Below are positions 4,228-10,726 of a stretch of DNA of 41,755 nucleotides, one piece after another; within the stretch, counting starts at the first letter, position 1; every line of letters starts with the position of its first letter. Source of the DNA: Campylobacterales bacterium (GTDB lineage: Bacteria; Campylobacterota; Campylobacteria; Campylobacterales; Sulfurimonadaceae); contig JAFGUJ010000134.1 of assembly GCA_016938595.1 (NCBI GenBank), positions 1 through 41,755 on the forward strand, written 5' to 3'. A program made the translations under genes and the position numbers. Under the pieces are notes generated by a model. That model did not search any database and was not told where the DNA came from. It saw only the letters and a list, made by a program, of their open reading frames with translations.

Positions 4228-4584
4228 ATGGCCTATATTACCCAACTAAAACATTTGATACAAAACGAGCTGATTCCCGATGTCGAAGAGCATATCGATG
4301 ATATTTTCGAAGTCATTGCGTCCCAGAAAGACGCATCACCGCAGGAACGCGCGCAGCTTGAAGATTTGCAGGCACTTCGTGATGAATACAAAGAACTCCT
4401 TGGAGAAATCAACAACGGGCAGATCGACGAGGAAGAGGCCGAGCAGCTTTATACCGAACTCACTTCAATGCGCGAGGGAGACGATGAAGACGATGACGAC
4501 GATCTGTATTACGACGAAGACGATCTGGACGACGAAGACGATTACGACGAATTAGACATCGACGAAGACGACGACCAGTATTGA
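4228..4584 (+). CDS. hypothetical protein with extremely acidic C-terminal tail
   Basis: 118 aa with helical N-terminus; the last 36 residues contain 26 D/E; good -10 box; overlaps next gene by one base (TGATG). Confidence 0.8.
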   Translation: MAYITQLKHLIQNELIPDVEEHIDDIFEVIASQKDASPQERAQLEDLQALRDEYKELLGEINNGQIDEEEAEQLYTELTSMREGDDEDDDDDLYYDEDDLDDEDDYDELDIDEDDDQY

Positions 4585-5330
4585 TGGGAAAATACGTTTT
4601 ACTGGATACCGAGACAACGGGGGCAGGGGAAAACGACCGGATCATACAGCTCGGGTTTATGGTTCTCGAAGGCAAAAATGTGGAGGTCTTTAACGACCTG
4701 TGCTGGAGCGACGTCCCCATCGGTTACGGCGCGATGGAGGTGCACGGGATTACCCCCGAAATGATCGCAGGGCTTCCGCCGTGTATCGAGACTACGGCAT
4801 TTAAAACGCTGAACGCTCTCAATGGACCTGAGAATGTTTTGATCATCCACAACGCCCCTTTTGATCTGGGGATGCTTGCCAAAGAAAATTTCACTTCCCG
4901 GATGCGTCTGATCGATACCCTGCGATGCGCCAAGCATCTCTTTGACGACGAGGATGCCCACCGTCTGCAGTATTTTCGCTACCGGCTGGGGCTATACAAA
5001 ATCGAGGAAGCCGAAGCGGCGTCCCTGGGGATTGAGGTCAAAGCCCATGATGCGATCGGCGATGTCCTTGTACTGAAACTTTTTTTGAGCGAACTGCGCA
5101 AACGGCTCGCCGAACGCTTCGGCAGCGTCAACCCGATCGACAAGATGGTCGAGCTGACGCAGACGCCTGTTTTCTATACCAAAGCGCTCAAATTCGGAAA
5201 GTACAAAGGGAAAACACTCAGCGAGATTGCTGAAGCCGATCGGGGCTATCTGACGTGGATGCTCGGAAACATGGAGAGTCTGGATGAGGACATGCGCTAT
5301 TCGATCGCTACCGTTTTGGAAAGCGCATAG
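4584..5330 (+). CDS. DnaQ-like 3'-5' exonuclease (DEDDh)
   Basis: LDTETTG, HNAPFDLGML and HDAIGD motifs; extra C-terminal domain (LKFGKYKGKTLSEIAEADRGYLTWML). Confidence 0.88.
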   Translation: MGKYVLLDTETTGAGENDRIIQLGFMVLEGKNVEVFNDLCWSDVPIGYGAMEVHGITPEMIAGLPPCIETTAFKTLNALNGPENVLIIHNAPFDLGMLAKENFTSRMRLIDTLRCAKHLFDDEDAHRLQYFRYRLGLYKIEEAEAASLGIEVKAHDAIGDVLVLKLFLSELRKRLAERFGSVNPIDKMVELTQTPVFYTKALKFGKYKGKTLSEIAEADRGYLTWMLGNMESLDEDMRYSIATVLESA

Positions 5331-6112: not shown

Positions 6113-6176
6113 GATTAAAATCCTTTAAAAAAGTGGTGTTATTATAGCGATAGCCCCTATTTTTAGGCTGATGAAC

Positions 6177-6188: not shown

Positions 6189-7430
6189 ATGAATTACGAC
6201 GCGCTCTCAGGAAAATCGGTATTGCTGTTAGGGAAGTCCAGAGCGCTGAACGCTCAGGAGTTCGAAACCCTTCTGCAGTTGCATGGCATCAAATGTCTCA
6301 AACGCTACGAAGAGGGAGTCGCGCTGATTATCGAGGGGCGGATGATGAATCCGCTCGAACAAAACGAGAGCGAAAGGCTCTATGAAGCCAGAGTCGCACC
6401 GATCGTCCCGATCGAGGGGCTTGAAGCGTGGTTGTGCCGATCCATCGAGCCAAACCGCCTTTTGATGAGCCTCAAGCTCTCCCGCGATCAGGAACGGTTG
6501 GTCGATTTCCTGAAAAATCCCTACATTACCGAGGAGCTCTTTTTCAAGCTCCTTAGGCTGTATGACTGGCAAAACGAGGGGCTGTTTGACAACGACCGCA
6601 ACCGCGATGTGACGGCTTCGATCATCGGCCGTTTTTACAAGGATCTGGAGCGAAACCACAACGTCCAGTACGCGATGAGCGGCCTGGCACACCTGATAGA
6701 GGGCTACGGAACGCGTGATCTGATCGAAGCAGTTGCGGCGCTCTCTCCCGTGGCGCGCGAACTGAAAACACCGTATGATCCTTCTCTAAGAGGGGTGATA
6801 GACGTGATGGCGCTCCACCCGCAGACGCCGGAAACGATACTCCGGGCGCTGCTGCCGACGCATGGACACCTGCTTTCCCGCCGTGTTCCATTGATGCTCG
6901 AGGAGGAGCTTCTGGGCGATCCGCAGAACCACCCGATACTGGCGCAAAACGAGAGCCTTTCTGAAAAGGGGGGGGAAGCTTTGGCCGAAGGGCACGGACA
7001 AAGCCTGGCGCGCCATTGGCATCTTCACGAGGAGCGTTTTGGGCGATTTTTCCCCGCATCGGCCAAAGAACTCGCCTCCAACCCTTCTTTGACACCTGAG
7101 ATGCAGCAGCAACTGATGGAGCTGGAGGATGGGGAGGTATGGCGGGCTATGGCAGTGAATCCGGTGGCCGAGCGTTCATGGCTGCACCGCCTTTTCGAGC
7201 AGGGCGGGTTTGAAGCCGAACTTGCGGCGAACCCTTCGCTCGAAGCCGCTGACCTCGAAATCCTCTCCCGAAGGGACAATCCGAAGGTGTTGGAGGCTCT
7301 GGCCGCGAACCCCTCGACGCCGATCGAGATTTTGTATCAGCTCTCTCTGGACCGGCGGTTTGAACGGAGTGTTAAAACCAATCCCGCTTTTGGAACCCAC
7401 ATACAAACCCACAATATAGGATGGAACTGA
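6189..7430 (+). CDS. BRCT-like N-terminus plus LRV-like (variant leucine-rich) repeat protein
   Basis: N-terminal GKSVLLLGKSRALNAQEFETLLQLHGIKCLK...LIIEG; later repeats ELASNPSLTPEMQQQL, ELAANPSLEAADLEIL, ALAANPSTPIEILYQLS. Confidence 0.75.
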   Translation: MNYDALSGKSVLLLGKSRALNAQEFETLLQLHGIKCLKRYEEGVALIIEGRMMNPLEQNESERLYEARVAPIVPIEGLEAWLCRSIEPNRLLMSLKLSRDQERLVDFLKNPYITEELFFKLLRLYDWQNEGLFDNDRNRDVTASIIGRFYKDLERNHNVQYAMSGLAHLIEGYGTRDLIEAVAALSPVARELKTPYDPSLRGVIDVMALHPQTPETILRALLPTHGHLLSRRVPLMLEEELLGDPQNHPILAQNESLSEKGGEALAEGHGQSLARHWHLHEERFGRFFPASAKELASNPSLTPEMQQQLMELEDGEVWRAMAVNPVAERSWLHRLFEQGGFEAELAANPSLEAADLEILSRRDNPKVLEALAANPSTPIEILYQLSLDRRFERSVKTNPAFGTHIQTHNIGWN

Positions 7431-8422
7431 TGCGCAGCCGCGACGCGATAACCACTTTGCGATCTCTGATCGAATCGCAGATCCCCACATTTTTGTGGGG
7501 GGCTCCCGGGATCGGTAAATCCTCGATCGTCAAACAGATCGCACGTGACATGCAGATCGAATGCATCGACCTGCGTCTCTCGTTGTTCGACCCGACCGAT
7601 TTGAAAGGGATCCCGTTTTACGAGCGAGAGTCCCACAGCGCGTTGTGGGCACCGCCGTCGTTTCTCCCAAGGGAGGGGAGCGGGATACTGTTTCTCGACG
7701 AGCTCAATTCCGCGGCCCCCGCCGTTCAGGCCTCGGCGTATCAGCTGATTCTGGACCGGAAAGTGGGAGAGTATACGCTGCCGGAAGGGTGGGCGATTGT
7801 CGCCGCGGGGAACCGCGAAGGGGACCGGGGGGTCGTTTCCCGTCTCCCTTCGCCGTTGGCCAACCGGTTTGTCCATGTCGAGATGGAGGTGCATGTCGCC
7901 GACTGGCGCGACTGGGCGATACGCTCAGGGGTCGATGAGCGGGTCATCGCCTATATCGCTTTTCAAAACGATGCGCTGTTCGGATTCGACCCCCTCAAAA
8001 GCACCCGGAGTTTCGCGACCCCGCGCAGCTGGGAAGCGGTTCACCGCATTGTGGGAAGTTCGCTTCCCGAGTCTCTCTGGCTCGAGGCGATCGGCGGGGC
8101 CGTGGGCGAGGATGCGGCGGTCGACTTTTTGGGATTTTGCAAAGTGATGCGGTATCTGCCCGACGTCGACGCGATTCTTTCCGGAACCAGTAGGGAGGTT
8201 CCGGAAGACCTTTCGGCGATGTACGCCCTCTCCACCGTTCTGGTCTCCCGTGTCATGAGGGAACCCTCCGACGAGGCAATTTCCCATCTCCTGCGTTACA
8301 CACTGGGACTCAAAAACGAGTTTGCCGTTCTCATCGTGCAGGATCTTCAGCGCCAGGGGGTGAAGATGGAGCATCTGGACGCTTTCGGGGAGTGGGTAGA
8401 GGCGTTCGCGTATCTGCTATGA
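7421..8422 (+). CDS. MoxR-like AAA+ ATPase
   Basis: Walker A GAPGIGKSS, Walker B GILFLDELNSA, sensor segment WAIVAAGNREGD. Confidence 0.92.
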   Translation: MELMRSRDAITTLRSLIESQIPTFLWGAPGIGKSSIVKQIARDMQIECIDLRLSLFDPTDLKGIPFYERESHSALWAPPSFLPREGSGILFLDELNSAAPAVQASAYQLILDRKVGEYTLPEGWAIVAAGNREGDRGVVSRLPSPLANRFVHVEMEVHVADWRDWAIRSGVDERVIAYIAFQNDALFGFDPLKSTRSFATPRSWEAVHRIVGSSLPESLWLEAIGGAVGEDAAVDFLGFCKVMRYLPDVDAILSGTSREVPEDLSAMYALSTVLVSRVMREPSDEAISHLLRYTLGLKNEFAVLIVQDLQRQGVKMEHLDAFGEWVEAFAYLL

Positions 8423-9495
8423 TCGATTTTTCCCCTTTGAAAGCGAAGCTTCTCCTGGAATACCCCTTTTTCGGGACGATCGCTGCCGCGATGGAGAGTG
8501 TCCAAAACGACGATATCGAGAGTTTCACGACACGGGACAACCGGTTTGAATACCGGTTCGATTACATGGCGGCGCTGGATGATGAACAGCGTGTTTTCGC
8601 CCTGTGCAACGCTGCGCTGCATGAAGCCCTTTCCCATACCCGCAGACGGGGAAACCGAAGCCCGTGGCTGTGGGAGATGGCGTGCGACTATGCGATCAAT
8701 GCGCTGCTGATAGAGGGGGGATTTTCGCCGCCGCCCGCGATCACTTACGACAAACGTTTCGGGAATCTCAGCGCCGAGGAGATTTATGCCGAACTTGCGC
8801 TGGAATTTTTGGATCAGGAACAAAGCGACCGTGACAGCGATGACCGCCGCGACGAAGAGGGCGCGGACGAAAAGCTCTCCCGTGCCCAGCGCGAACGCCG
8901 CACGCGAGAAGCGCTGGCCAAAGACGATCCGCTCAGTGAGGGAATAGGGAGGCTTCTGGGAAACCGAGCGGTTGCAACGATCGACTGGAGGAGCGAACTG
9001 CGCGACGCGGTCGGGGGACACTATATCAGCGATTACGCTCTGATCCCCCCGAGCAAAAAACTGCTTTACGCCGGGGTCTATCTGCCGGGGGTCCATTCGC
9101 GCCACCTGGATCTAGCCATCGCCATCGACAGCTCCGGTTCAGTCGATGAAGCCCTGCTGGCACAGTTCATCGCCGAGATTGAATCGATCACCGAACTGTT
9201 TGGCTCCTATGCGATTGAGCTTTTTGTATGCGATGACCGGATCCGCGGCCGCAGCCGCTTCACCAACGGCGAAGCAATGCACTATGAACTTGTCGGCGGG
9301 GGAGGGACCGATTTCACCCCCATATTCGATGCCATCGAGAGACTGGAGAGAACGCCGAACATGCTACTGTATTTTACCGATCTGGAGGGGAAGTTTCCTC
9401 CGAGAGAATCCTCATGCGAAACACTGTGGATTGCCCCGCAACGCTGTGATGTCCCGTTCGGACGGGTGATTGTAATGGGGGATGAAGATGCTTGA
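8419..9495 (+). CDS. DUF2201-type metallopeptidase-like/VWA domain protein
   Basis: N-terminal HEALSH...WEMACDYAIN; C-terminal VWA with MIDAS-like DSSGS, GGGTDFTP, TDLEG; ATGA overlap with upstream MoxR gene. Confidence 0.85.
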   Translation: MIDFSPLKAKLLLEYPFFGTIAAAMESVQNDDIESFTTRDNRFEYRFDYMAALDDEQRVFALCNAALHEALSHTRRRGNRSPWLWEMACDYAINALLIEGGFSPPPAITYDKRFGNLSAEEIYAELALEFLDQEQSDRDSDDRRDEEGADEKLSRAQRERRTREALAKDDPLSEGIGRLLGNRAVATIDWRSELRDAVGGHYISDYALIPPSKKLLYAGVYLPGVHSRHLDLAIAIDSSGSVDEALLAQFIAEIESITELFGSYAIELFVCDDRIRGRSRFTNGEAMHYELVGGGGTDFTPIFDAIERLERTPNMLLYFTDLEGKFPPRESSCETLWIAPQRCDVPFGRVIVMGDEDA

Positions 9496-10726
9496 GAAAG
9501 CTCTGGGGATACTGGAATATGCCAATCTTTTTATCACCGGCGGCGCGGGATCGGGGAAGACGACCCTGACGCGCGCCATCATCGAACATGCCCAGAAAGA
9601 GGGAAAAGTTGTCGCCCGCCTCGCCTCGACGGGGATGGCGGCGACACTGATCGGCGGGCAGACGCTTCACAGTTTTTTCGATCTTGGGATCGCCAATTCC
9701 CAAGAAGAGCTGGAACGCAACGGCAAACTGGAACCTTCCAAAAAGGTCGTCAAACTGATTCGCTCGATGCAGATTATTGTGATCGATGAGATCTCGATGG
9801 TGAGCGCGCCGCTGCTCGATATGATCCGTCTGCGCCTGTTGCAGTCGGAATTTGCAGGGCGGTTGATTGCGGTAGGGGATTTTTTGCAGCTTCCTCCCGT
9901 AACGCGCGGGAATGAACCGATCTATTTTGCGTTCGAATCCCCAAGCTGGCAGCGGATGAGCTTTGAGACACTCTATCTGGAAGGCTCTTACCGCACCCAC
10001 GAAGCGGAGTTTCTGACCCTGCTGGAGAAAGTACGCCATGCCAAGCTCGACAATGAAGCGCATAATGCGCTCGAAACGCTGGTCAAGCCGCTGAGTGACG
10101 ATCTGAGTTCGATTACGCTGCTGTTCGGTAAAAACATCAGCGCTCAGAACCATAACCGTGCTCAGCTGGAGCATCTGAACGGGGAGAGCATCGACATTTC
10201 CACATACGTCACTCTGCATGACAAAAAGATGCAGGAACGTGATGTGGAACGGTTTATGGCCGAGAGCCGTATCGAGCCGGCATTGACCCTCAAAGTAGGG
10301 GCTCCCATCCTCTTTACCCGCAATGCGTGGAACTACTACAACGGAGAGCGGGGAAGGATCACTTCCATCGAGGAGGACGTAATCTGGGTTAAAAAAGAGG
10401 GGGGAATGAGCGTCAAAGTGGAACGGGTCGAGACGACGAAAACGCGCTGGATCGAGAAGGGGAAGACCACCAGCGAGGAAAAACTGATCACCCTGCACCA
10501 GTTTCCGATCACTCTCGCTTTCGCGATCACAATCCATAAATCCCAGGGGATGAGTCTGGCCGATTACGTCATTGAAACGAATGAAATCTTCGCCCCCTCA
10601 CAGTTTTACGTCGCCCTGTCGCGTTCGGTATCGGCGCACCGTGTGACGCTGACCAAACCCCATAGAAGCTGGGAGAAGCTCTGTTTCGTCCACCCAAAAG
10701 CAAAACATTTCAGCGAGAGGCTGTAA
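9482..10726 (+). CDS. PIF1-like SF1B helicase/AAA ATPase
   Basis: GGAGSGKTTL, ASTGMAATLIGGQTLHSFF, VIDEISMVSAPLLDMI, GDFLQLPPV, ITIHKSQGMSL, YVALSRS. Confidence 0.9.
   Translation: MKMLEKALGILEYANLFITGGAGSGKTTLTRAIIEHAQKEGKVVARLASTGMAATLIGGQTLHSFFDLGIANSQEELERNGKLEPSKKVVKLIRSMQIIVIDEISMVSAPLLDMIRLRLLQSEFAGRLIAVGDFLQLPPVTRGNEPIYFAFESPSWQRMSFETLYLEGSYRTHEAEFLTLLEKVRHAKLDNEAHNALETLVKPLSDDLSSITLLFGKNISAQNHNRAQLEHLNGESIDISTYVTLHDKKMQERDVERFMAESRIEPALTLKVGAPILFTRNAWNYYNGERGRITSIEEDVIWVKKEGGMSVKVERVETTKTRWIEKGKTTSEEKLITLHQFPITLAFAITIHKSQGMSLADYVIETNEIFAPSQFYVALSRSVSAHRVTLTKPHRSWEKLCFVHPKAKHFSERL

Follow-up and report, generated by a model that had tools for sequence, protein, structure and literature searches.

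A MoxR–VWA pair and a predicted BRCT–LRV protein form a conserved, repeatedly lost module in sulfur-oxidizing Campylobacterota

Four consecutive genes that overlap at every junction raise the question of whether they constitute one system and on what such a system would act. They lie in the window, by which we mean the whole 41,755-nucleotide stretch of DNA analysed here. Its source is a Sulfuricurvum-like genome, 89% complete, that comprises 1.82 Mb over 216 contigs and finds its nearest named homologues in Sulfuricurvum. An earlier note on this DNA had delineated the four open reading frames and their overlaps (7421–7430, 10 nt; 8419–8422, 4 nt, ATGA; 9482–9495, 14 nt), all of which proved exact, and had named the products of genes 2–4 as MoxR, VWA and PIF1 proteins, in agreement with Pfam (AAA/AAA_3, DUF2201_N with DUF2201, and PIF1, respectively; Table 1). 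The longest open reading frame of gene 1 begins at 6171 (419 aa). The Met at 6189 (M7, counted from 6171) is invariant in alignment A2 and present at a level of at least 90% in A3, and because this is the conserved one, 6189, the start given in the note, is preferable to 6171. The overlap between gene 1 and the MoxR gene (10 or 13 nt) is shared by all 10 of the further loci examined in Sulfuricurvum and by several in Sulfurimonas. Elsewhere in the window, positions 4228–4584 encode a small protein whose tail consists almost entirely of Asp, Glu and Tyr; in Sulfuricurvum its gene is kept directly 5′ of an ExoX-like exonuclease gene (4581–5330).

Table 1. Coordinates of the four genes and their principal features in the window
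Feature	Position	Strand	Evidence
Gene 1, BRCT–LRV protein, 413 aa, proposed module adaptor	6189..7430	+	ORF, conserved start, model pLDDT 91.6, LRV matches in 17/26 homologues
Gene 1, predicted BRCT domain, residues 15-90 numbered from Met at 6171, β-α-β-β-α-β-α	6213..6440	+	isolated model, Foldseek (RFC1, LigA), hhalign with LigA BRCT, sub-threshold PF00533
Gene 1, strongly conserved helical segment, residues 94-200	6450..6770	+	alignments A1, A3; helices in model
Gene 1, LRV repeats, residues ~251-415	6921..7415	+	Pfam LRV_2/LRV, alignment, Foldseek armadillo-like helical repeats
Gene 2, MoxR-family AAA+ ATPase, 333 aa	7421..8422	+	Pfam AAA, near-invariant motifs, Midasin AAA, phrog_1297
Gene 2, Walker A	7499-7525	+	
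Gene 2, Walker B	7685-7702	+	
Gene 3, DUF2201_N + DUF2201 (VWA) protein, 358 aa	8419..9495	+	Pfam E=5.9e-24 and 1.1e-23
Gene 3, MIDAS DxSxS	9127-9141	+	invariant MIDAS residues
Gene 4, PIF1/Dda-like helicase, 414 aa; neighbour outside module	9482..10726	+	Pfam PIF1 E=2.7e-29, phrog_325, independent distribution, retention at empty sites

The product of gene 1 had been described as carrying a BRCT-like N-terminus and LRV repeats. Profile searches, suggested in the note as a check, gave a divided answer: LRV repeats were matched by Pfam in most homologues, whereas the N-terminus obtained no significant library profile match. The curated Pfam BRCT profile matched none of 26 gene 1 homologues, and PF00533 run over 21 genomes yielded two sub-threshold matches, one in the window at 6198–6332 (E=0.08) and the other to the gene 1 homologue of genome G072. 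NCBIfam returned nothing for gene 1, and a PDB sequence search found no relative of it.

Structure prediction bore out the BRCT-like N-terminus, with profile–profile support from the LigA BRCT. The full-length AlphaFold model (pLDDT 91.6, from 54 sequences) places an N-terminal β-α-β-β-α-β-α domain ahead of helical repeats. When the N-terminal 86 residues were modelled in isolation (pLDDT 90.5), Foldseek matched them in the PDB almost exclusively to BRCT domains, among them those of RFC1 (7u1a, 2ebu), bacterial DNLJ/LigA (9a6z), XRCC1, Rev1 and Mcph1. The RFC1 and LigA matches reached a TM score to the query of 0.65–0.70 at an rmsd of 2.1–2.5 Å; those with E<=0.001 (probability 1.00, best E 9.6e-5) lay at 0.65–0.69. 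Using hhalign, the profile of the gene 1 domain aligned with a Campylobacterota LigA BRCT profile over 70 co-linear columns with a score of 26.0 (E=1.5e-4, probability 52%); permuted and reversed controls scored at most 15.7 (n=31). As modelled, the N-terminus of gene 1 is a true BRCT fold, of the RFC1/LigA type by fold. BRCT domains of that type bind phosphate through the Thr of a Thr-Gly motif and the Lys of a Gly-Ser-Lys motif. The gene 1 domain, which resembles them in fold and in its co-linear profile match, differs at these canonical positions: the Thr, after strand 1, is replaced by Leu, the lysine has no counterpart in an alignment with the LigA BRCT, and a basic GKxR loop after strand 1 is conserved in place of the canonical residues.

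The helical segment that follows the BRCT domain contains four invariant residues (L103, Y131, R145 and R154) and may be the surface through which gene 1 contacts the motor. In the repeat region, the window protein matched LRV_2 (E=3.8e-5) and LRV (E=0.008), both under the Pfam cut-offs. Across the 26 homologues, LRV_2 was matched in 17 (best 6.7e-11) and LRV in nine (best 1e-12), which bears out the repeats claimed from the window alone. Conserved Asn residues recur at positions 304, 330, 354, 380 and 404, a spacing of 24–26, and Foldseek assigned the region to armadillo-like helical repeats. Both the BRCT fold and LRV repeats are typical protein-binding parts.

Genes 2 and 3 encode what appears by sequence to be an intact motor pair. 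The Walker A, Walker B and sensor residues of MoxR are all intact, and these motifs are near-invariant in its homologues. Its nearest solved relatives by sequence are the AAA domains of Midasin, and it matches the phage family phrog_1297 over its full length (1.3e-99). The DUF2201 protein has an invariant set of MIDAS residues (D237, S239, S241, T297 and D321) and matches the phage family phrog_1314, likewise over its full length (1.2e-64); a PDB sequence search found no relative of it. Homologues of this protein were found in 364 phage records and on 68 plasmids. Its DUF2201_N part carries an HExxH-like motif, which reads HEALSH in the window (residues 68-72) and in some Sulfuricurvum; the catalytic Glu is missing in most homologues. 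The motif suggests a degenerate peptidase-like (zincin-like) fold, and with the Glu so poorly conserved an active protease role is weakened and proteolysis is unlikely as the common function. MoxR–DUF2201 pairs of two other kinds occur in Campylobacterota, their genes close together and with no gene 1 homologue alongside (L207, L208, L209, L213 and L220). The neighbours of these paralogous pairs did not point consistently to any function.

Do these genes belong together? The earlier note had suggested checking whether all four co-occur; this held for gene 1, MoxR and VWA and failed for PIF1. Of 80 named loci, 79 have MoxR directly 3′ of gene 1 and one ends at a contig edge. Within the family, gene 1 was matched in 97 of 121 genomes, in a few of them weakly, and its place on the chromosome is conserved within each genus. 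From a sample of 298 Campylobacterota genomes, 44 matched gene 1, of which four weak partial matches (E 2e-5 to 3e-4) were dropped. MoxR at E<=1e-40 was present in all 40 remaining genomes vs 6 of the 258 without gene 1 (Fisher p = 1e-43, a nominal value that ignores shared ancestry), and the MoxR copies in those six look like paralogues. Viral contigs yielded no gene 1, and plasmids gave no full-length match, only one weak match in Deinococcus confined to the repeat region. The collection-wide scan for gene 1 used a Sulfurimonadaceae-only alignment, which distant relatives in other phyla may escape. The gene order of the trio is not strict, since gene 1 stands apart from MoxR in some distant loci (L118, L121 and L125) and the MoxR–VWA junction is interrupted by inserts of 0.3–8 kb in 19 of the 66 named loci that were long enough to be scored.

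The trio is also lost together. In four Sulfuricurvum genomes that are 99–100% complete (G076, G084, G088 and G118), all three genes are missing at a clean site, at which the upstream genes and PIF1 are kept with only ~80-200 bp between them. On the PIF1 tree, the trio-less rows (these four Sulfuricurvum and one Sulfurimonas) require five separate changes, in agreement with bootstrap trees. According to this one gene tree, block loss of the trio, or exchange at the site, has therefore been repeated; the pattern could also have arisen through recombination there, or because genes that happen to be adjacent were deleted by chance. Gene 1, MoxR and VWA are one conserved module of sulfur-oxidizing Campylobacterota that has repeatedly been lost as a block. 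In one Sulfurimonas genome (G069), a VWA gene persists at the site (L263:9279-10367), and gene 1 and MoxR are gone.

How might such a module work? In NorQD, a MoxR–VWA couple made of a ring and a client-binding VWA protein, a VWA finger sits inside the ring pore, the MIDAS is placed on the client, and ATP drives a twisting motion (PMC9976466, PMC13036017). We consider it probable (about 0.68) that the trio is an ATP-driven protein-remodelling module in which a MoxR and a VWA (DUF2201) protein are the motor and the BRCT–LRV protein acts as adaptor. On the model of NorQD and Midasin, MoxR would build an AAA+ ring and the MIDAS metal site of the DUF2201 protein would grip the target, the DUF2201 protein setting its VWA domain onto the ring. 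The BRCT–LRV protein would serve as a dedicated adaptor or scaffold that binds the client complex through its BRCT and LRV surfaces and delivers the motor there, and it may thereby choose the client. It is solely the type of BRCT fold that hints at a client in the form of a DNA-associated protein complex. A more specific version, in which the BRCT adaptor aims the AAA+/MIDAS motor at DNA-bound complexes such as stalled replication or repair assemblies and the whole acts as a BRCT-targeted disassembly machine, is tentative. Action of the trio on DNA damage, the idea put forward in the note, is conceivable from the type of BRCT fold, although the domain lacks the phosphate-binding Thr and Lys described above.

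A different kind of client is suggested by the function of the characterised pairs. Like NorQD, CoxDE and CbbQO, the trio might serve a single enzyme by inserting its metal or cofactor, with gene 1 as an enzyme-specific docking factor. We regard this as unlikely. NorQD, CoxDE and CbbQO are usually encoded beside their client, and no metalloenzyme partner was recognised among the scanned neighbouring proteins of the trio; a BRCT fold would also be unusual in such a role. Speaking for it, the hosts of the trio are metabolically rich chemolithotrophs, and metalloenzyme maturation is the best-understood task of MoxR–VWA pairs (PMC9976466, PMC13036017). With NorQ/NorD, and by analogy with CbbQ/CbbO and RavA/ViaA, the trio shares a MoxR AAA+ ring (in the trio, predicted by analogy) and a MIDAS-bearing VWA protein with a separate N-terminal domain. 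It departs from NorQ/NorD in having a DUF2201-type protein as VWA partner and a third, dedicated gene that contributes BRCT and LRV parts.

The repeated loss of the block at a fixed site is typical of accessory systems, and several loci have restriction or toxin–antitoxin genes between MoxR and VWA. These features would fit an anti-phage or other conflict system in which the trio recognises invading DNA–protein complexes or takes them apart, a reading that we judge improbable. Defence genes do occur among the inserts (L091, L092, L105, L110, L111, L112 and L115), namely restriction systems of types III and IIG, HepT/MNT, AbiV, and an EcoRI-type methylase accompanied by a GmrSD/HNH protein, but many other inserted genes are housekeeping genes, and ClpB-like, HSP70, DapF, MCP and GGDEF/EAL proteins are found among them. 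The idea that the junction is a dedicated bay for defence genes was dropped on this account. PADLOC matches of the trio proteins were only weak and none was convincing, no effector domain was found in the trio, and the distribution of gene 1 described above, with its presence in most family genomes at a place fixed within each genus and its absence from viral contigs and from full-length plasmid matches, argues in the same direction.

Conflict systems with a MoxR–vWA core are known, namely the ternary systems with a β-propeller (PMC7159879). The trio is similar to these in combining MoxR, VWA and a third component built of repeats. Unlike theirs, its third component is a BRCT–LRV protein; no β-propeller gene was found in the trio set, the window MoxR matched bpMoxR under the cut-off (19.5 vs 27 bits), and the paper describing the ternary systems mentions neither LRV nor BRCT (PMC7159879). 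A second relative is the MoxR–vWA pair of jumbo phages, which has the same architecture, a MoxR with a VWA protein that carries a metallopeptidase-like N-terminus, and is proposed to aid virion assembly (PMC7824862). The trio differs from it in that none of the viral contigs was found to carry a BRCT–LRV gene and in that most of its DUF2201 proteins have lost the catalytic Glu from the peptidase-like motif. Searching the open-licence literature, we found no paper that joins MoxR with DUF2201, LRV or BRCT, and none that joins BRCT with LRV in bacteria, in line with the note's view of an undescribed combination. What appears to be new, beside the known MoxR–VWA motor pair, is the BRCT–LRV component and its block inheritance with that pair.

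The helicase gene, which the earlier note had counted as part of the system, proved to be a neighbour with a history of its own. PIF1 was found in 175 of the 298 Campylobacterota genomes vs 40 for gene 1, about four times as many, is missing from three trio carriers (G188, G238 and G254) and lies more than 1 Mb from the trio in four others (G010, G016, G027 and G030). It is near the trio in many Sulfurimonas, where an opposite-strand GGDEF response-regulator gene usually parts it from VWA. The VWA/PIF1 overlap recurs only inside Sulfuricurvum, in the window and in most loci of the genus, and there the tight overlap suggests common transcription. A scan for a promoter that would separate the helicase, also proposed in the note, detected none on the coding strand between the two genes, so that the helicase may share the transcript, although evidence from scans of this kind is weak. 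PIF1 probably shares the trio transcript in Sulfuricurvum only, and the VWA–PIF1 linkage is local. The helicase (9482–10726) also gave a match to Dda-like helicases of phages (phrog_325, E=4.1e-63). Despite the overlap in Sulfuricurvum, the proximity in many Sulfurimonas and the BRCT fold of gene 1, a four-gene DNA-repair operon with PIF1 as one functional member, as read in the note, is highly improbable given the separate distribution of PIF1, its unlinked position in several genera and its retention where the trio was lost; an obligate four-part system is already largely refuted.

MoxR–VWA motors are widespread, few of their clients are known, and how clients are selected is poorly understood. 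A BRCT–LRV component that is kept and lost along with its motor offers a concrete handle on client selection, and the hosts of the trio, which are free-living and have natural trio-less relatives, allow comparison. If it is true that the BRCT part finds DNA ends or DNA-bound proteins, the trio would link this class of chaperones to genome maintenance.
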